IMG/VR virus record: IMGVR_UViG_3300042695_002368
Span: 1-29,449 of that record
DNA: 29,449 nt
Source of the DNA: a virus
Direction: 5' to 3' (one strand)
This document shows, piece after piece, positions 1,303 to 9,216 of the stretch; within the stretch, counting starts at the first letter, position 1; each line of letters begins with the position of its first letter. The notes below the pieces were generated by a model. It was given only the letters and a program-made list of their open reading frames with translations. It was not told where the DNA came from and did no database searches. The position numbers were made by a program, and so were the translations under genes.

Positions 1303-2220
1303 TCAGCCACATTTACGCAACTTGTCTGGCTCAATGCGCATGGCCACAGGCTTGTTAAGCATGGACAGCAAGATCATCGAGCGCCGCTCGGCGTCGGTGG
1401 TTTGGTAGATCGCCTCAATGCCCACAAACGGCCCGTCGGTGATGACGACTTTGTCGCCTGCGGCAAAAAGAGCTTGAGGATTGGACTTCTGAAGTTGCTC
1501 GCGCTCGTGCAGGGCGGTGATGAGATCGGCATCGACCTTGGGTGGGTGACCGCCGAATTTGACGAGCTCGCGCACGCCCAGCGTAGAGCGAATGGGCGAC
1601 CAACTTTGGCCCTTGATGTTTGCACTGGTGTCCAGCTGCACGAACACATAACTGGGGAACATGGGCTCGGCCACCACCGCAGGCTTGCCCCGGCGGACCT
1701 TCTCCACATAGAGCATGGGCATGTAACAGCGGAAGTTTTGCCGCTGCAGGTTGGTGATGGCCGTGTCTTCTTGCCGTCCCTTGGTGTGGACCAGATACCA
1801 AGCGTGGTTCGGCGGCAGGCTGAGGTCTTGGGATGGCTTGGTTTGCGCCAGGAACTCAGGCTTGGATCCGGCCATGGGCACAGGCGCCTTGACCTTGGGC
1901 GCAGGCTTGAGGTCTTCGCGCACCGCTGGCTTGAAGACCGTGGGATCAGATTCAATGCCTTGAGTGTTGACCGACAGGTCGAGCGATCGGGCTATTGATC
2001 GAATGAGCGGCAGGGGCCGCTCATGCTGCAGCACTTGCTTGAGGAGGTTACGCAATTCCCGCTGCTCAAAAGCCTCCAGGTCTTCAAGGCGGTAATGGAC
2101 ATCGAGACCTTGCTGGAAGATGGGCAGGCCATCGTCTTGCCAGCGCAGCTTTTGAAGGCTGCCGGGTGTGAGGCCCAGGCGGTCAGCGGCATCTTGCGTG
2201 GTGAGCAACCGGGGGGTCAT
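1303..2220 (-). CDS. RfaH/NusG-like transcription elongation factor fused to an N-terminal winged HTH
   Basis: This 305-residue protein has three parts. Residues 4-53 (LLTTQDAADRLGLTPGSLQK, then YRLEDLEAFEQ) look like an excisionase/MerR-type winged helix-turn-helix. Residues 54-138 form a linker rich in Pro, Lys and Ala. Residues 139-302 match RfaH: an NGN domain (AWYLVHTKGRQEDTAITNL, EPMFPSYVFVQLD, TLGVRELVKFGG) and a KOW domain (GDKVVITDGPFVGIEAIYQ, RRSMILLSMLNKP). RfaH-type proteins bind paused RNA polymerase and suppress termination in long operons. Here it probably acts on the phage late operon. ATG at 2220 is chosen because the longer frame begins at GTG and its extra residues match nothing; neither start has a strong Shine-Dalgarno sequence. 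The HTH-RfaH fusion is unusual and is discussed in the findings. Confidence 0.9.
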   Translation of the reverse strand: MTPRLLTTQDAADRLGLTPGSLQKLRWQDDGLPIFQQGLDVHYRLEDLEAFEQRELRNLLKQVLQHERPLPLIRSIARSLDLSVNTQGIESDPTVFKPAVREDLKPAPKVKAPVPMAGSKPEFLAQTKPSQDLSLPPNHAWYLVHTKGRQEDTAITNLQRQNFRCYMPMLYVEKVRRGKPAVVAEPMFPSYVFVQLDTSANIKGQSWSPIRSTLGVRELVKFGGHPPKVDADLITALHEREQLQKSNPQALFAAGDKVVITDGPFVGIEAIYQTTDAERRSMILLSMLNKPVAMRIEPDKLRKCG

Positions 2221-2309: not shown

Positions 2310-2897
2310 CTAACGGCTCTCTTCTAGGGTCTTGGTCTGCTCGGCGTACCAGCGCTGGAATGACAAGACCATGAGCGTGGCCTGCGCGGCGTCGCTGGCC
2401 AGTTGTTCACAAGTCACTGAAATCTGAGCTCTGGCGGGATCAGGTACAACGTCGGCGGCGGCTGCATCAACACCGGCGGCAGGCTCGGCATGGGCGGGCA
2501 CGGGGCCTGGACCGTGGGTATTGGTGGCTGGCTTACGCAGGCGGTGAGCGTCAATGCGCTGATCAGCAGCCACAGGCGGGGCAGATATGGACGGCGCAGA
2601 CTCCGGAATGTTGGACGCCATTTGAGGCTGCCACAGGCGTTGAAGTTGGGTTTTCTGGATGTCATGGTCGGTGGTGATGTGTTGGTTGATCTGTTGTTGC
2701 CGGTTTTGGACTTGGGCGACTTGCAAGGACTGCTGTAAGGCGGCGGCTTTTTGTTGCATGCGCTCGGAATCCCACGCCTGCTGTACGCCCTGCTGCCCCA
2801 GCCGGTGGCCGGCCCAAAACAGGCCTGCAGCCATCAGGCTTGAGACGATCCATCGCAGGGATAAGGAGCCGAGCCAGGTGATGAGCCACGCACTCAT
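2310..2897 (-). CDS. Rz: Rz-like inner-membrane spanin (i-spanin)
   Basis: Inner-membrane half of the spanin complex that fuses inner and outer membranes at the end of lysis. The 195-residue product starts with a membrane anchor at about residues 9-30 and no cleavage site. A Gln-rich, probably coiled-coil periplasmic stretch follows (about 31-95), then a Pro/Ala-rich region. The ATG overlaps the stop of the lysin gene as ATGA. A second reading frame wholly inside it encodes an Rz1-like lipoprotein, the classical lambda arrangement. Sequence similarity to lambda Rz is weak; the call rests on topology, position and the nested partner. Confidence 0.85.
   Translation of the reverse strand: MSAWLITWLGSLSLRWIVSSLMAAGLFWAGHRLGQQGVQQAWDSERMQQKAAALQQSLQVAQVQNRQQQINQHITTDHDIQKTQLQRLWQPQMASNIPESAPSISAPPVAADQRIDAHRLRKPATNTHGPGPVPAHAEPAAGVDAAAADVVPDPARAQISVTCEQLASDAAQATLMVLSFQRWYAEQTKTLEESR
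2414..2665 (-). CDS. Rz1: Rz1-like outer-membrane spanin lipoprotein embedded in Rz
   Basis: An 83-residue product read in the +1 frame entirely within the Rz gene. It has a basic N-terminal stretch (about 1-31), a hydrophobic core (LWLLISALTLTAC), and a lipobox ending at Cys43. The mature part of about 40 residues is strongly proline-rich (SQPPIPTV, CPPMPSLPP, QPPPTLYLIPP). A short Pro-rich outer-membrane lipoprotein nested in Rz is the signature of an o-spanin. The N-terminal region is longer than usual; no better start codon lies between 2665 and the hydrophobic core. Confidence 0.87.
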   Translation of the reverse strand: MTSRKPNFNACGSLKWRPTFRSLRRPYLPRLWLLISALTLTACVSQPPIPTVQAPCPPMPSLPPVLMQPPPTLYLIPPELRFQ

Positions 2898-3376
2898 GCG
2901 GCCTCCGGTGATAGTTTTAGCGGTAGGTCCAGCGTTTCGAGCTGGTATTTGTCGATCATGGCGATTAACTTGTCGGCATAACGCGGATCGGTGGCATAGC
3001 CGGCCTTGGCCACAGCTTGCGCAAATGTTTTGCCCGTGGTGCAGACAAAGCAGGCGGCATAGCGTTTATTGCGGCGCAGAAACTGACCATGATCCACCAA
3101 GCAGGTCTGCCAGTCGGGGTAGGCACGCCAGTCGGCCGGGATCACCACCCACTGCTTGTTCAAGAACTCACGGGTGTTGAGCGTGATGCGCTGGCCCGTC
3201 CAGCTGCGGTCGACCTTGATGCCAAAGAGGTTTTTGGCCCGAATGGCCAGGCCCGACTCGCCCCAGCCGGATTCCAGCGCGGCTTGTGCCACCACAAAGC
3301 TGGCCGGGATGCCGGTCTGTAAGCGACTGGCCTGCGCCGCAGGGCCAATGAGCGCGATGAAGTCTTGCGGTTTCAC
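2894..3376 (-). CDS. Phage endolysin, glucosaminidase (GH73/FlgJ-like)
   Basis: A 160-residue peptidoglycan hydrolase. The motif AALESGWGESGLA with the likely catalytic Glu35, followed by NLFGIKVDRSWTG, is typical of the mannosyl-glycoprotein endo-beta-N-acetylglucosaminidase (GH73, flagellar FlgJ C-terminal) family. YATDPRYADKL near the C-terminus fits the same fold. There is no signal peptide, so release would depend on the upstream holin-like protein. The start is GTG, overlapping the holin stop by 4 bases, and is preceded by AAGGAG inside the holin gene. It lies inside a holin-lysin-spanin cassette. Confidence 0.92.
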   Translation of the reverse strand: MKPQDFIALIGPAAQASRLQTGIPASFVVAQAALESGWGESGLAIRAKNLFGIKVDRSWTGQRITLNTREFLNKQWVVIPADWRAYPDWQTCLVDHGQFLRRNKRYAACFVCTTGKTFAQAVAKAGYATDPRYADKLIAMIDKYQLETLDLPLKLSPEAA

Positions 3377-3756
3377 AGCATCTCCTTCACGTCCTTGGCC
3401 ACCTGGTCAATGGAGGCGTCGCGGCGCTGACCGATGAAGTTGAACACCCAGCGCACCATGGCCCAGCCGGGCAGGCCACAGGCGAACATGAGCCCGCCCA
3501 GAGCACACAGCCCCACGGTTGAGAACGCCCAATGGTGCAATTGGAAATGCTCCACAGTGATAGCCCCGCCACCAATGCTGGAGACCACCGTGCTGATGAG
3601 CCCGACGGCCCATTCACGTTTGTCGCGCGGGGGCGTCATGAGCATGACCACCACGGCAGCCAGCGTGGCACCACTGGCCACCGCCGCAGCAGTGCCCCCA
3701 AAGGCCTTATAGGCAACAGCCGCTCCTGCCACGCCAGAGCTTGTTGGTTCGGGCAT
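3373..3756 (-). CDS. Holin-like membrane protein
   Basis: A small hydrophobic protein (127 residues from ATG at 3756) with about three membrane segments: an Ala/Val/Gly-rich one at about 20-41, one at about 48-68, and one at about 77-101. The C-terminus is charged (QRRDASIDQVAKDVKEML). Its place directly before the endolysin and its overlap with the endolysin start support a holin role: timed permeabilisation of the inner membrane. ATG at 3756 was chosen over a TTG at 3768 because GGAGA lies at good spacing. It is the first gene after an intrinsic terminator. I do not recognise the holin family. Confidence 0.75.
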   Translation of the reverse strand: MPEPTSSGVAGAAVAYKAFGGTAAAVASGATLAAVVVMLMTPPRDKREWAVGLISTVVSSIGGGAITVEHFQLHHWAFSTVGLCALGGLMFACGLPGWAMVRWVFNFIGQRRDASIDQVAKDVKEML

Positions 3757-3771
3757 AAAAATCTCCAAAGT

Positions 3772-3829: not shown

Positions 3830-5188
3830 TCAGGCTGCGACTGCCGTGTCGTGCACCAAGATTGGTATCACGCGTCTGGTGCGCTGTTCAGGCACGACGT
3901 GGACCTGCCCAAAGACGTCTTTGCGGTTCTGTCTGAAGTCACCGTCGATGTAGTACGGAATGCAGCCGGTAAGGTACTCTATGGCAGCAGCCAAGAACGG
4001 CACGTTGTCCGAATAGGCAGCTTCGCACCCCGCGTCCCACAATGGCCCTTGCAAAAACATGCAAGAGCCTTTGCAGATTTGCAGGACCGGACAGCTGGGG
4101 CAATCGGGCCTGTGGCTCCAATGGGTGGCGCTGCGCATCTTGACGGCCTGCAAGTTGGACAAATGCCCAATCTGATGGGGTTGACCGTTGAGCGCGGTGG
4201 CTGCAGCGCTCACGTTTTGGCAGGTGAGCACGTTGCCATACAGGTCTACTGCCAGGTTGCTCGCTTTGTCCATGTCGCACTTCTGTCCCAAGGCTGAGGC
4301 CGGGCGTGCTGTCCGGATGGACTGCACAAAATCCATGATGCGCTGCTGCGCAACCGCCATGCGCGAAGCAAAGCCCTGACGCAGCTCTATGTAGGCCATG
4401 GATCTGAACCGCAAATGGTCCTGAGGGGTTTGCAGGGTCGCGGCCAAGCCACCTTCGTCGTAGGGGTCAATGAAAGCCCCCTCCCCGATGTTCACATCCT
4501 GACCAAAGCGCTGCTGCAGCCAGGCCTGAATCTGTGCCCGGCTTTGGTTGCCTGCATGGACCATGGCATTGATGCTCATGCGCCCCTGGGGATGGAGTCG
4601 GGCATGCAGGTCCATGATGGCAGCGTATTTCTCAGGAACGTCAAGCGGATCGGGGCCCCTGGTGGACTGGCCCGGACCGTCGTGTGACAGGCCCACAGAA
4701 AACCCCATCCGATCGATCCACTCGTTCTTTTGCGCATCGAGCAAGCTGCCGTTGGTGATGACGCTGAACTGAGCGTTCGGGTACAGCCCGCGTAGGCGCT
4801 CGGCCAGCGGCTTGAGCGTCTTCCAGTACACCAAGGGCTCTCCACCCCAGAACTCGATTCGCTCGGGCGGCTCGATGAGTGCTTCGGTCAGTTGGGCGAC
4901 GAAAGGCTCAATGTCATCCGAATGGCTCGCATCCGCATGTGGCACAAAGCGCTGGTTGCAATAGCTGCACTCGTAATTGCACGACAGGCCCAGGCTGATC
5001 TTGAGGACACGGATATTTTCTTTACGGCCAGGCTGATTAACCGATACCACCGTGGCGTCGCGAAACGTTGCAGGCTGAACTGGCACTACGGGCGTACCGT
5101 CATGCCAAGTCAGTACAGACAACTGGTTGTCATAGTGCAACAAGACGTTTTGACCATCTTGTCGCAAAGCGTGAATTTGGAATTTCAT
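3830..5188 (-). CDS. Radical SAM/SPASM enzyme, candidate tail-fibre maturase
   Basis: A 452-residue radical SAM enzyme. Residues 60-80 carry the [4Fe-4S]-SAM motif CNYECSYC (Cys70, Cys74, Cys77). GGEP at 115-118 is the SAM-binding motif, and VITNGSLL follows at 143-150. The C-terminal SPASM domain is complete: Cys304, Gly318-x4-Cys323, then Cys363-x2-Cys366-x5-Cys372-x3-Cys376, then Cys388. This is the pattern that binds two auxiliary clusters in anSME-type and peptide-modifying enzymes. The family usually modifies peptides or proteins (thioether, C-C links, Cys/Ser oxidation). ATG at 5188 overlaps the oxygenase stop by 4 bases with AAAGG upstream; a 22-residue extension is open but lacks support. 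The product looks intact. The likely substrate is the Cys-rich end of the nearby tail fibre; that is inference. Confidence 0.93.
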   Translation of the reverse strand: MKFQIHALRQDGQNVLLHYDNQLSVLTWHDGTPVVPVQPATFRDATVVSVNQPGRKENIRVLKISLGLSCNYECSYCNQRFVPHADASHSDDIEPFVAQLTEALIEPPERIEFWGGEPLVYWKTLKPLAERLRGLYPNAQFSVITNGSLLDAQKNEWIDRMGFSVGLSHDGPGQSTRGPDPLDVPEKYAAIMDLHARLHPQGRMSINAMVHAGNQSRAQIQAWLQQRFGQDVNIGEGAFIDPYDEGGLAATLQTPQDHLRFRSMAYIELRQGFASRMAVAQQRIMDFVQSIRTARPASALGQKCDMDKASNLAVDLYGNVLTCQNVSAAATALNGQPHQIGHLSNLQAVKMRSATHWSHRPDCPSCPVLQICKGSCMFLQGPLWDAGCEAAYSDNVPFLAAAIEYLTGCIPYYIDGDFRQNRKDVFGQVHVVPEQRTRRVIPILVHDTAVAA

Positions 5189-5793
5189 GGCATGGCCTTT
5201 TGCTGCTCCTGCAGCCGCGTTTTGAACACCAGGACTGGACGCAGATCTCGGCAAGCGCGCGAGATCGGATTGACGCCATGACGAATGTGACCAGCAAAGA
5301 ACACCACCCGAGCCGGTGCCGGCATGACCGAGCCCATTAAGCGGTCGTCCTGGTCATAGAACACCGTCTCTCCACCCCATCCGGCTTGCCAGTGCCGCAC
5401 GCCATAAATCAAAAGGGTTCTGTCCAGCGGGTGTTGGCTGTCGATGTGGACATTGCCTTCGTTGCCATGGGTATTGGCATTGGCATAAACGCCGTGGCAC
5501 TGGGTCATGAGTGGCAGTTGCAGCTTTTGTACGCATTGCTTCCAGACCTGTGACAACACGCTGCCCTGCTCCTGCAAAAACAGCGGTGTGCAGCTGTAGT
5601 CAGAGGCCTGGTTGATGGGCCAGTCACGCCCCAACAACTCTCGGTGCCAAATCGGAAAAGGCTCCGGTTCGTTTTTGTTGGTGATGCGGTAGTAGCGGTA
5701 CTGCAGGTGTTGCAGCCAGTCGATGAGCGCCTGTGCTGTGCTGGGATCCAGAACGTCATCGGCGAATGAAACGGGACTTCGATCATCAAGCAT
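5185..5793 (-). CDS. 2OG-Fe(II) oxygenase (prolyl 4-hydroxylase-like fold)
   Basis: A 202-residue dioxygenase of the double-stranded beta-helix type. Visible motifs are VHIDSQH (metal ligands His116 and Asp118), WGGETVFYD (138-147, typical of the P4H-like family), FFAGHIRHGVNPIS (likely distal His172) and the Arg-rich segment RDLRPVLVF that would bind 2-oxoglutarate. It would hydroxylate or otherwise oxidise a substrate using O2 and 2-oxoglutarate. ATG at 5793 has GGAGG upstream at good spacing and overlaps the previous gene by 8 bases. It is translationally coupled to the radical SAM gene, so the two probably act together. The substrate is unknown; a protein side chain of the virion is plausible. 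Confidence 0.88.
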   Translation of the reverse strand: MLDDRSPVSFADDVLDPSTAQALIDWLQHLQYRYYRITNKNEPEPFPIWHRELLGRDWPINQASDYSCTPLFLQEQGSVLSQVWKQCVQKLQLPLMTQCHGVYANANTHGNEGNVHIDSQHPLDRTLLIYGVRHWQAGWGGETVFYDQDDRLMGSVMPAPARVVFFAGHIRHGVNPISRACRDLRPVLVFKTRLQEQQKAMP

Positions 5794-6505
5794 GGTCAGC
5801 CTCCGGCTCTGCCACCGAATGAAACTCAATCGCCAAGGTGTCGCGCGATTGGGTGCGCAGCGGGAAATACCCATGCGGTGTGCACAGTGGCATGGTCACC
5901 ATCAACCCCGGCTGCGGGGTGATCGGGAAATGCACTGGCGTTTCCCAGGGCAGTAGGCTTTCGTTGACCCGTTTGGCCGGATTGCCGATGACCATGCAGC
6001 CGGGCGTTCGCACATTGGGGCTGTCAGTACCTGGGTAGTCCGCTTGCAAAAACAGCACCGTGTTCAGGCCCGCACGGCTACTTGCAATGTGCTCAGCCAC
6101 ATGGAATCCAGGTTGGCAGCGCATGATGTGAGCACTCAGCCGATAGCGGTAAGTTCCCCAAATGGACTGCAAGTGCGAACGCACCACCGCCAACATGTCC
6201 TGCAGACCATCGGCCTGGGATAAGCCGCTCTGCAGCAAATCGTGGCTGCGGCACTGCCAAGCTTCAGGTCCCCAGCGGTGGACAGCGTCTTCCCTGAGGA
6301 CGGCCTGCACCAACCGTTCAAGCAGCGCGGGAGGCAAGTTTGAGGGTTGCACATGCACAGTGCTGGGCCACAAAGAAAAAACCCAACGTTGGGATGACGT
6401 TGGGTTATTTTCTTGAGCAGCGAAATCTGCGCCTGGATTTTTGCTGGCTTGTGTAGCCACCGCCATGATGGGTGGCGGGGCATGGTCAGATATTTCAAAC
6501 GACAT
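5786..6505 (-). CDS. 2OG-Fe(II) oxygenase-like protein with HxA in place of HxD
   Basis: A 239-residue product. Its C-terminal half looks like the same fold as the next gene. HIASSRAGLNTVLFL aligns without gaps with HIDSQHPLDRTLLIY of the neighbour, and the later block PGLMVTMPLCTPHGYFPLR has the expected distal His211 and nearby Arg residues. The metal-binding Asp is Ala141 here. HxA/HxG is the arrangement in Fe(II)/2OG halogenases such as SyrB2, but an inactive or differently liganded enzyme is equally possible. ATG at 6505 has AAGGAG at ideal spacing and overlaps the upstream gene by 11 bases. The first ~40 residues look unstructured, and the DNA there contains a strong hairpin at 6372-6414. 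The fold assignment is moderately supported, the activity unknown. Confidence 0.7.
   Translation of the reverse strand: MSFEISDHAPPPIMAVATQASKNPGADFAAQENNPTSSQRWVFSLWPSTVHVQPSNLPPALLERLVQAVLREDAVHRWGPEAWQCRSHDLLQSGLSQADGLQDMLAVVRSHLQSIWGTYRYRLSAHIMRCQPGFHVAEHIASSRAGLNTVLFLQADYPGTDSPNVRTPGCMVIGNPAKRVNESLLPWETPVHFPITPQPGLMVTMPLCTPHGYFPLRTQSRDTLAIEFHSVAEPEADHA
6372..6414 (-). terminator. Terminator-like hairpin inside the start of the HxA oxygenase-like gene
   Basis: A perfect 10-bp inverted repeat, AACCCAACGT (6380-6389) and ACGTTGGGTT (6397-6406), with a 7-base loop. It extends through AAGAAAA/TTTTCTT with one bulged base, about 17 bp in all. Transcribed on the minus strand, a T-rich run follows the GC part, as in an intrinsic terminator; the AT flanks make it look bidirectional. 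It falls at about codons 31-45 of an apparently open gene, which is unusual. Confidence 0.6.
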
Positions 6506-7475
6506 GAACGACTCCTTGGGCCAGTGCATTGACGACCCCTAATCCAAATTGAAGTTGTAGGCTTTCACCCGAACGCAGTCCAAGGGCCATGGCCCGCACG
6601 TGGGCCCGTCCTGCTTGCATGCGAACGCGTCGGTGTGGGGCATAACCAGAAAGGGCATGCACATGCAGCCACGCATCGGCAGGCTCTGAAGCACGGACTT
6701 GCAGATCCACCCATTGGTCTGGTGAAACCACTGGCGGTGCAATCACGGTGAGCTTGGGTAAATGCTCGTGCAGCCAGGTGATGGTGTGGGCATGTCCGGC
6801 AAGCGCATCGCTTGGCTTGGCATAAGCCACGTGCTCGTCCACCTGCAAATCGGTCCAGACAGGACCACCTGGGTAAGCATTGATGCGCAGGACCATCTGA
6901 CCGCTGAGCGGTGCTTCATGCCAAGGCACCAAGCAACTGCCAGCCACCAAGTGTTTGTTTCGAGCTTTTGTCAGTGGCAGGGACAAGGCGGTAAAGCCCT
7001 CACTGTCCACCCGACTGCAGCGCGTGAGCACATGCCGATTGAAAGGGGCCATGAATCGCCAAGTGTCTGTACACAGTACAAACATCCAGGCGGCCCAGTC
7101 GCTCAAGTGCTGCCCATACATGCGCGATTTGGATCGCATGGCCTGCGGGTCCAGGGCAATTTCATCGATGAGACCCCACATTTGTCCTTCTATCCTTTCC
7201 TGGTGAGCATGTGGCATGCACTGGCGTACCGGCAACACATAGGGACTGGGGTTTCCGAATCTGAGGTCACCTGGATTTGGGTTCCCGCTGTCCGTGGTGG
7301 TCGGTTGAGGATAGGAGCGTCCTGTCACGGCTCCAAGTGCGGGATCGCCTTGAACCGGTTCCCACAATCGCCAGCTCAGGCGGTCTGACTCAGCCAGGAC
7401 TTCTACGGCCAACGGCAGTGTGAATTCGTCCACCCTTTGCACAAAGCGCGCACGAGCCGGAAGATCTACCTTCAT
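6495..7475 (-). CDS. Unknown protein of the tail-fibre modification cassette
   Basis: A 326-residue protein I do not recognise. The start ATG at 7475 follows a strong GGAGGT and overlaps the previous stop as ATGA. The N-terminal 60 residues and the C-terminal 90 residues (from about LTVIAPPVVSPDQWVDLQVR to the end) are rich in alternating hydrophobic residues and probably form beta domains. The middle is rich in Trp, His and Met (WAAWMFVLCTDTWRF). There is no signal peptide or membrane segment. Its place between the fibre and the oxygenases suggests a fibre accessory, a chaperone or a substrate-presenting protein; this is a guess from context only. Confidence 0.75.
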   Translation of the reverse strand: MKVDLPARARFVQRVDEFTLPLAVEVLAESDRLSWRLWEPVQGDPALGAVTGRSYPQPTTTDSGNPNPGDLRFGNPSPYVLPVRQCMPHAHQERIEGQMWGLIDEIALDPQAMRSKSRMYGQHLSDWAAWMFVLCTDTWRFMAPFNRHVLTRCSRVDSEGFTALSLPLTKARNKHLVAGSCLVPWHEAPLSGQMVLRINAYPGGPVWTDLQVDEHVAYAKPSDALAGHAHTITWLHEHLPKLTVIAPPVVSPDQWVDLQVRASEPADAWLHVHALSGYAPHRRVRMQAGRAHVRAMALGLRSGESLQLQFGLGVVNALAQGVVHVV

Positions 7476-8266
7476 ATCCGCACCTCCAGCTCCTGCACAC
7501 CGCTGTACCACTTGAAGCCCAGCTTGATCTTGGCCAAGGCACCGGGGTCTGCGCCGAAGAGTGTGACCAGGGCGAACCCGTGCTCAAGCTGGGGGCGACT
7601 GTTGCTTAACGCTCCAGCCGTCGTACTCAGGAGCACTTGCCCTGACACCGGCATCACTTGGCCTTCGTCATCCACAACCGAAACGCGGATTCGTCTGGGC
7701 TCACCCCCGTCATCCGCCAGTCGGAAAGTAGGGAACGCCATGGTCATGGCCACCGAAGTGCTTGGCCACTCTGCGTCAAACTCAAAGCCGTTGACCTCGG
7801 TCCGCCCATCTTGTGGCGAGCACATGAGCACCAGCGAGGGCTCAAGGCCCAGTGGTGGAATCCAAAACTGTGCCAAAACCAGCATGGGCTGCTGGTTCCA
7901 GTACTGCCGAAAGTCCTCTTTGGACAGCGCGGTCTGGGCAAACTTGTTGATCCACACCGGCTCCTTCTCTCCTTGGCGCAAGGCAAAGAGCCAGACTGTG
8001 TAAGCGTTGCCAGAGTCTTGTGCCAGCTTTTGCAATTCGGCTTGCCGGAGGGCATGAACAAAAGCGCTTTGGTACCCTGACAGGGTGGGCTGCGCTGCCT
8101 CGTCAATGACACGACCCGATTCATCCAGCGCCATTTCATACGCTGGCAGAAGATGCTCGATGTAGAAATCACCATCTATAAGTTCAATGCGGACTTTGTT
8201 GGTGCTTTGCGCGTTGTTGGGGCTTGCAGGACTTTGCCAGGGATAAGGCATGCGGATGGTTTTCAT
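7472..8266 (-). CDS. Unknown protein with C-terminal Ig-like domain, next to tail fibre
   Basis: A 264-residue protein of no family I recognise. The start ATG at 8266 has GGAG at good spacing and lies 14 bases after the tail-fibre stop. Residues about 30-120 look alpha/beta with a Glu/Gln-rich helix (HALRQAELQKLAQDS), and 120-185 are hydrophobic and beta-rich. Residues about 190-264 (RRIRVSVVDDEGQ, VSGQVLLSTTAG, GFALVTLFG) resemble an invasin/Big-type Ig-like domain, common in phage tails and surface proteins. It could be a structural partner of the fibre or a chaperone. The ORF could be extended upstream into the fibre's Cys-rich coding repeat, but the Shine-Dalgarno sequence supports 8266. 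Confidence 0.78.
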   Translation of the reverse strand: MKTIRMPYPWQSPASPNNAQSTNKVRIELIDGDFYIEHLLPAYEMALDESGRVIDEAAQPTLSGYQSAFVHALRQAELQKLAQDSGNAYTVWLFALRQGEKEPVWINKFAQTALSKEDFRQYWNQQPMLVLAQFWIPPLGLEPSLVLMCSPQDGRTEVNGFEFDAEWPSTSVAMTMAFPTFRLADDGGEPRRIRVSVVDDEGQVMPVSGQVLLSTTAGALSNSRPQLEHGFALVTLFGADPGALAKIKLGFKWYSGVQELEVRI

Positions 8267-8280
8267 GGGCGAGCTCCACA

Positions 8281-9216
8281 TCAGCAGCCGCAGCAATTGC
8301 AGTTGCAATTGCAATTGGCCAACACGCTCACTGTGCGCAAGCGGAGCTGACCGCCTTCATCAATCAACTCGTAGTCATGCCGTGTTGTGATATTGCCGCT
8401 GCCATAGCAATTGATGGCATAGCCAGTGCCACCACAATTGGCCACTTGTTTGAAAAAATAGTCATGCAACCAGCCGTAGTTGGCGGTCCACATGGAGCCG
8501 CCGTTGTTCATGTACATGTCCCAGTTGCCGTCGGTTTTCAGAAACCCCATCAGGTTGCTGTTGACGTGAAGGTAACGGGTGGTGCCTTGGTCTGTGTCGT
8601 AGAAATCAATCGTGGGCGAAGTGCTCTGCACAGTCTGGCTGGGCAAGGTCAGGCGTCCGCTCATGCTGTCGCCAGTGCGCGCCACCCGGCCAGACAGATC
8701 AATGCTGACCGTTGCATTGCCGTTGGCGTCGGGGCCGCCCCCGTTGACTGAGCGAACAAAGGCTGAGGAGTCATAGCCATCGAGCCGGTCCGAATCCGTC
8801 GCTTTGGCGCTGATGCCCAGATAGGCGGCATTGTGGTTGTGCGAAGTCGAGGCAAAGGCGCTGGCGTGCTGACCATCAAGCAGGTCGGCGTCCAGCCCTG
8901 AGCCGGAGCCATCCACCGTGAGCAGTTTGGCCAGCACATCGGCAGCGGTGTATGCCGCAGCATTGAGTTTGGCCGCGAACTGGGCATCAATCCCACTGGC
9001 TAGGTCCATGATGAAGCGCCAGTTGTCCGGGTTGGTGCCGATCAGCTGGTAGAGCTTGAGTTGATCAGTGCGGTAGCACAGCATGCCCACTTGCTGGTTG
9101 GTGGTCGGAAACGTGGTGCCGCTGTTACAAGAAATCGCCGTTTTGTCGTTGTTCAGGATCTCGATCAGCGAGTCAGACAGCGTGCGCGAGGACGGGATGT
9201 CGGTGAAGTTTTGCAT
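8281..9216 (-). CDS. Tail-fibre protein with Asn-Cys repeat, Cys-rich C-terminus
   Basis: A 311-residue tail-fibre-type protein. Typical fibre motifs are present: LDADLLDGQHASAF and SDRLDGYDSSAF (repeated LDG..(S/A)AF units), SHNHNAAYLG, and RTGDSMSGRLTLP. A beta-rich C-terminal part with Trp, Tyr, Asn and Gly follows (residues 200-280). The last eleven residues are NCNCNCNCCGC: Cys at 302, 304, 306, 308, 309 and 311, encoded partly by a hexanucleotide repeat. Other Cys lie at 30, 47, 261 and 270. Such a tail is not a known fibre feature and resembles the Cys-rich cores of radical-SAM-modified peptides. Start ATG at 9216; the gene follows the repeat-containing tail protein by about 40 bases. 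Confidence 0.88.
   Translation of the reverse strand: MQNFTDIPSSRTLSDSLIEILNNDKTAISCNSGTTFPTTNQQVGMLCYRTDQLKLYQLIGTNPDNWRFIMDLASGIDAQFAAKLNAAAYTAADVLAKLLTVDGSGSGLDADLLDGQHASAFASTSHNHNAAYLGISAKATDSDRLDGYDSSAFVRSVNGGGPDANGNATVSIDLSGRVARTGDSMSGRLTLPSQTVQSTSPTIDFYDTDQGTTRYLHVNSNLMGFLKTDGNWDMYMNNGGSMWTANYGWLHDYFFKQVANCGGTGYAINCYGSGNITTRHDYELIDEGGQLRLRTVSVLANCNCNCNCCGC
8284..8314 (-). repeat. Hexanucleotide repeat encoding the Asn-Cys tail
   Basis: Four successive copies of AA(T/C)TGC on the minus strand (three AATTGC and one AACTGC) encode the Asn-Cys dipeptides just before the fibre stop codon; TGC-GGC-TGC finishes the gene. Because the unit is six bases, gain or loss of copies would keep the frame and only change the number of Cys residues. 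Confidence 0.85.

Follow-up and report, generated by a model that had tools for sequence, protein, structure and literature searches.

An open reading frame on the minus strand of a 29,449-nucleotide virus record (IMG/VR IMGVR_UViG_3300042695_002368, positions 1 to 29,449; hereafter, the window) encodes, at positions 1303–2220 and as a single in-frame protein of 305 residues, the antiterminator RfaH joined through a linker to a winged helix-turn-helix (HTH) domain of the excisionase/BldC type. RfaH is a model fold-switching antiterminator that is recruited via a DNA pause signal, and the cell coat on the other side of the phage encounter often serves phages as a receptor. The fusion is a real and conserved RfaH variant for which, as for its genomic setting, no published description was found in the literature searched, and its association with loci carrying the pause signal, ops, makes its function, which we infer from sequence comparisons, testable. 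Through this protein, the virus probably controls the coat of its host. A fused domain that binds duplex DNA would be a natural experiment in target finding by RfaH-type factors; the setting further suggests that temperate phages integrate beside, and control, a coat-building operon, so that phage control of surface structures becomes testable via one gene. RfaH-like genes on prophages have already been mentioned (PMC7593976). RfaH reviews and a large survey treat the horizontal transfer of RfaH, its copies on plasmids and prophages, and the additional domains of certain NusG proteins; a text search of their freely available main text returned no HTH fusion.

Domain Architecture and Fold of the Fusion Protein

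Read from the N-terminus along the minus strand, residues 1–57 (positions 2050–2220) make up a winged HTH of the HTH_17/excisionase/BldC fold, recognized through Pfam, an AF2 model, Foldseek and dN/dS. Residues 58–111 (1888–2049) are a linker conserved in the clade of window-like proteins, and residues 112–138 (1807–1887) a variable linker whose length differs among the fusions. The NGN domain follows at residues 139–236 (1513–1806; Pfam, NCBIfam and model), and the KOW domain, assigned by sequence only, occupies residues 247–305 (1306–1482). In profile searches with the fusion, the Pfam NusG family matched residues 140–234 with 75.1 bits (cut-off 22.2), while HTH_17 matched residues 5–54 with 25.0 bits (E 2.3e-5), just below its cut-off of 27, a score that is lower or absent in the other fusion clades. 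The NCBIfam RfaH family TIGR01955 matched residues 141–300 with 169.8 bits against a cut-off of 144.5, which is exceeded in all three fusion clades, and PRK09014 gave 154.8 bits against 124; the profiles of the specialized paralogues UpxY (67.4 vs. 100 bits) and LoaP (49 vs. 125 bits) were both below their cut-offs. The sequence-only reading had called the NGN and KOW halves very close to RfaH, and whereas membership of the family stands, the closeness is only moderate, with 37.8% identity to Salmonella RfaH; comparison with the solved E. coli RfaH gave E ~1e-27. The Xis-like DNA-binding domain that it placed at the N-terminus is borne out by the AF2 model of residues 1–85, which is a winged HTH (pLDDT 85) with the excisionases RdfS and GIsul2 Xis and the regulator BldC as the nearest solved folds in Foldseek (TM by target 0.66–0.82, at weak E-values, the best being 1.6e-3). 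The best structural match of the whole-protein model is E. coli RfaH bound to ops DNA; in the full-length model the HTH and NGN are resolved, and the pLDDT of the KOW is mostly below 45. Since the protein has 305 residues and an added HTH, in place of a single NGN-KOW protein of about 160 residues, it is an architectural variant of RfaH rather than an ordinary member.

Conservation and Origin of the Fusion

The virus and genome collections scanned contain 26 distinct full fusions, all sharing this architecture and falling into three clades that are about 50% identical to one another. Mean pairwise dN/dS in the window-like clade is lowest in the HTH (0.05), which is thus the most constrained segment; NGN has 0.08, the conserved linker 0.09 and KOW 0.10, whereas the variable linker reaches 0.41. 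The N-terminal segment could have been poorly conserved or out of frame in homologues; it is instead in frame, the best conserved part and under strong purifying selection. Stand-alone RfaHs from these loci branch as a separate clade (support 92/99), and because they group apart, the fusion protein is not a host RfaH, as had been conceivable; a phage origin is supported. The 26 like fusions, the constraint on the HTH and the separate clade of host RfaHs together exclude an artefact. A single origin of the fusions is compatible with the tree (AU p 0.278). Among named phage records, NusG/RfaH relatives are only distant, and none aligns over the HTH.

Several proteins touch on the question of ancestry. 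A stand-alone HTH protein of 107 residues (L016:9995-10318) lies in tandem with, and immediately ahead of, a fusion gene that the contig end truncates, and aligns with the first 80 residues of the fusion, that is, including linker residues 58–80, which suggests, by sequence likeness, a source of the HTH domain. At L206 (G540) 1297-1986, directly before an ops leader, an RfaH carries an N-terminal extension resembling the fusion linker and no HTH; it may have arisen from a fusion by loss of the HTH, or be related to the ancestor. An apparent stand-alone protein in L014 was rejected as a fusion cut by the contig end, and L017 was excluded as a distant NusG-like protein without HTH.

Gene Neighbourhood and Promoter Region

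The fusion family is carried by prophages of freshwater Betaproteobacteria, in which the late genes are followed by the lysis genes, the fusion, the serine recombinase and two ParB/RepB-like genes, with the host beyond. The neighbours had been correctly recognized in the window, where all of them lie on the minus strand: upstream of the fusion are a small holin-like protein of the lysis cassette (3373–3768; phrog_1024, which carries no function there, so that holin-like is taken from position), an endolysin (glucosaminidase; 2894–3376) and, as the final late-region gene, an Rz-like spanin (2310–2897), the latter two by gene annotation. Downstream is a large serine recombinase (1–1188), cut by the window end and about 515 residues long in relatives. 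At L138:5983-8258, a 72% identical recombinase in another phage is adjoined by a stand-alone RfaH on the opposite strand and by a polysaccharide-type gene. The left ends of the G007 and G008 prophages carry a second serine recombinase and the 3' end or a fragment of an HU gene. No convincing pair of direct repeats was found at the prophage ends, and hence no attachment core is claimed. Elsewhere in the window (8281–9216 and 3830–7511, minus strand), a fibre-like protein ending in NCNCNCNCCGC lies near a radical SAM/SPASM protein and a 2OG-Fe(II) oxygenase, which resemble peptide-maturation enzymes; related phages have similar Cys-rich ends, and it is possible that the phage fibre is modified enzymatically.

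Ahead of the fusion, at positions 2250–2278 of the minus strand, lies a promoter-like element, TTGACT-N17-GTTCAT, which as TTGRCT-N17-STTCAT is found with identical spacing upstream of all 26 fusion genes examined. A consensus promoter scan listed no promoter-like site at the fusion, so the assignment rests on conservation across the clades. Fusion genes of the window-like clade carry an exact or near-exact dyad TCATGCnnGCATGA that overlaps the second hexamer; in the window this candidate HTH site occupies positions 2240–2253 and has one exact match, against 0.17 expected at one mismatch or fewer. It occurs once in each of six prophage regions, each time at the promoter-like element of the fusion, and is found neither in the prophage-free genome G043 nor near the right prophage end. 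Shortly before the fusion, the late region of clades b and c and of five clade a members terminates in a GC-rich hairpin with T's after it (three of these fold at −39 to −45 kcal/mol); no such hairpin precedes the promoter-like element in the window. Because of this late-region terminator and the conserved element, the fusion seems to be transcribed as a separate unit, and it is probably autoregulated.

The ops Element and the Adjoining Polysaccharide Operon

Of the 12 fusion loci whose flank extends more than 2.7 kb beyond the recombinase, 11 have an exact GGCGGTAGCGT at 2160–2799 nt downstream of that gene, or nine of ten after the removal of two duplicates; some of the flanks are homologous and several of the loci are related by descent or transfer, so that the association represents fewer than nine independent events. 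Since they are not all independent, the counts are given as an association, with no p-value. None of 60 recombinase relatives without the fusion has the exact 11-mer at that place. In six loci (G005, G008, G009, G010, G301 and L131), GGCGGTAGCGT(G) lies about 200 bp or less past the second ParB gene and is followed by a MarR_EPS-type regulator (TIGR04176, 153 bits in G010) and then by further polysaccharide genes, while in G217, G499 (= L137) and L134 the host rfaH comes first, then ops, then the polysaccharide cluster. The exception is G007, in which the second ParB gene is truncated, with no ops after it and an apparent tRNA fragment at that end. The 13-base exact ops of G499 has one copy in a 2 Mb genome, at the fusion locus. 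The sequence-only reading had suggested a scan for conserved sites, ops-like ones included, upstream of the late operon; the exact ops lies instead beyond the prophage, at the polysaccharide operon of the host, invisible from the window.

The same leader heads polysaccharide clusters in the prophage-free Comamonadaceae relatives G043, G052 and G087, and in G016, where it is preceded by a stand-alone rfaH. When G043 is compared with the prophage junctions, homology begins with the second ParB gene's stop codon, which places the right prophage end at a host promoter region; the ops beside the prophage therefore belongs to the host. The attachment site of the recombinase may by itself account for this adjacency. 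In G106:C19, near 671, a truncated polysaccharide leader follows an apparent 3' end of the second ParB gene, possibly a scar left by a prophage since lost. G217 (L100) and G499 (L225), whose genomes differ in size, share 10.9 kb at 94% identity, from the fusion into the polysaccharide cluster, a recent joint transfer of the module with the first polysaccharide genes.

E. coli RfaH contacts ops through K10, H20, R23 and R73, the last being important (PMC5995543). The fusions keep K10, R23 and Q24, have mostly N at position 20, and have L, V or I at position 73; in the stand-alone RfaHs encoded at neighbouring ops clusters, position 20 is N and position 73 is I, V or K. As the same positions are substituted in both, the fusions seem, by these residues, about as well equipped for ops as the RfaHs of their hosts. 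The loss of R73 speaks against action at ops, but it was given no decisive weight, since some stand-alone RfaHs at ops clusters also lack it. Every fusion has E48 and R138, the interdomain pair of RfaH.

Proposed Function and Alternative Explanations

The arrangement of these loci makes it fairly probable, in our judgement, that the fusion is an RfaH-type regulator expressed in lysogeny and acting via ops on the adjoining host polysaccharide operon, with its HTH working at its own promoter. Besides the exact ops next to the prophage, this reading is favoured by the polysaccharide genes beside the fusion in L131 (glycosyltransferase and Nudix) and L147 (galU), by the shared movement of the module and the first polysaccharide genes, by the absence of an ops core from the window and the G008 prophage, and by L013, where no plus-strand terminator-like site separates the fusion from the ops. 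The prophage would make the factor in lysogeny from that promoter, separately from the late genes; the NGN would then join polymerase paused at ops, some 2.2–2.8 kb past the recombinase in the leader of the exopolysaccharide/O-antigen operon, and the KOW would keep transcription and translation running through this long operon. The outcome would be lysogenic control of the host cell surface, and an altered coat might shut out other phages or maintain the fitness of the lysogen. The HTH would bind the candidate dyad over the promoter, most simply for regulation of the gene itself, or, as a more novel option by analogy with AlpA, for loading polymerase there. Because a stand-alone RfaH is already present at the cluster in some hosts, the phage copy may be redundant.

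The dyad also invites an explanation in the manner of Q and AlpA, which we regard as unlikely: the HTH would replace or supplement ops, handing the NGN from duplex DNA at its own promoter to polymerase, which would read through the recombinase and both ParB genes into the polysaccharide operon without ops, thereby linking viral to host transcription. That an HTH can load an antiterminator from duplex promoter DNA has a precedent in AlpA (PMC9371919). The conserved promoter-like element with its overlapping dyad, found at the fusion only, and the absence of R73 fit this route, as does L013, where the genes from fusion to ops lie on the same strand with no plus-strand terminator-like site between them. 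However, the dyad covers the second hexamer, whereas the AlpA site lies between the hexamers, and an operator so placed suits repression better. E. coli RfaH is autoinhibited before it encounters ops, and the retention of E48 and R138 points the same way. A duplex phage site had been proposed as a second way of recruiting the factor; of this, the candidate dyad, once per prophage, survives, but no evidence ties the protein to antitermination of the late operon. Action as an antiterminator of the late genes, independently of ops, is highly improbable. Plasmid-borne NusG paralogues are located in the operons that they are thought to serve (PMC7593976), yet the fusion comes after the late region, often separated from it by a strong terminator, and was kept in G499, whose prophage is largely degraded with few structural genes left. 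The ops core GGCGGTAG, moreover, is absent from both strands of the window and of the G008 prophage; single coding-strand copies occur at the start of the tail-fibre J gene in G007 and G301, and near the start of a reading frame in G005.

The fold of the HTH, nearest to excisionases, and the position of the fusion beside the recombinase in most loci would also suit an excisionase or recombination directionality factor for that enzyme, the RfaH part being secondary. This is distinctly unlikely: related recombinases (≤72% identity) occur without the fusion; excisionases of the RdfS/GIsul2 type are known as partners of tyrosine recombinases; no copy of the dyad lies near the right prophage end; polysaccharide genes intervene as cargo between fusion and recombinase in L131 (glycosyltransferase and Nudix) and L147 (galU); and a full, conserved RfaH would be left unexplained. 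Nor do we give much credence to a captured host rfaH merely hitch-hiking on a polysaccharide island with no special phage role. The joint movement of module and polysaccharide genes and the decay of the G499 prophage are in its favour, but the three fusion clades stand apart from host RfaHs, the HTH is strongly constrained, and the fusion is retained alongside a host rfaH in G217, G499 and L134. The regulator acting on the host operon via ops is thus the explanation that we prefer.

Comparison with Known Systems

The fusion resembles E. coli RfaH (TIGR01955; PDB 5OND) in its NGN and KOW domains, most of the ops-contact residues, the pair E48-R138 and the exact ops at a neighbouring operon, and differs in its N-terminal winged HTH and long linker, its carriage by a prophage, the replacement of R73 and the mostly N in place of H20. 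It shares with plasmid-borne RfaH/NusG paralogues (PrfaH of IncX3, PDB 9IK0, and those of tra operons) the condition of an RfaH-like factor on a mobile element; unlike them, it has an added HTH, and its proposed target is a host polysaccharide operon, whereas theirs is the element's own operon. UpxY and LoaP are likewise specialized NusG paralogues, for long polysaccharide or antibiotic operons, but the fusion falls below the cut-offs of their families. We know of no HTH in either family. The excisionases RdfS and GIsul2 Xis and the regulator BldC share the fold of the N-terminal domain, and are small proteins for which no NusG-like fusion is known to us. AlpA and 21Q offer a likeness in principle, namely an HTH reading duplex promoter DNA together with a polymerase-modifying part; no sequence relation to them was seen, and their modifying part is a ring in the RNA exit channel, whereas that of the fusion is an NGN domain (PMC9371919).
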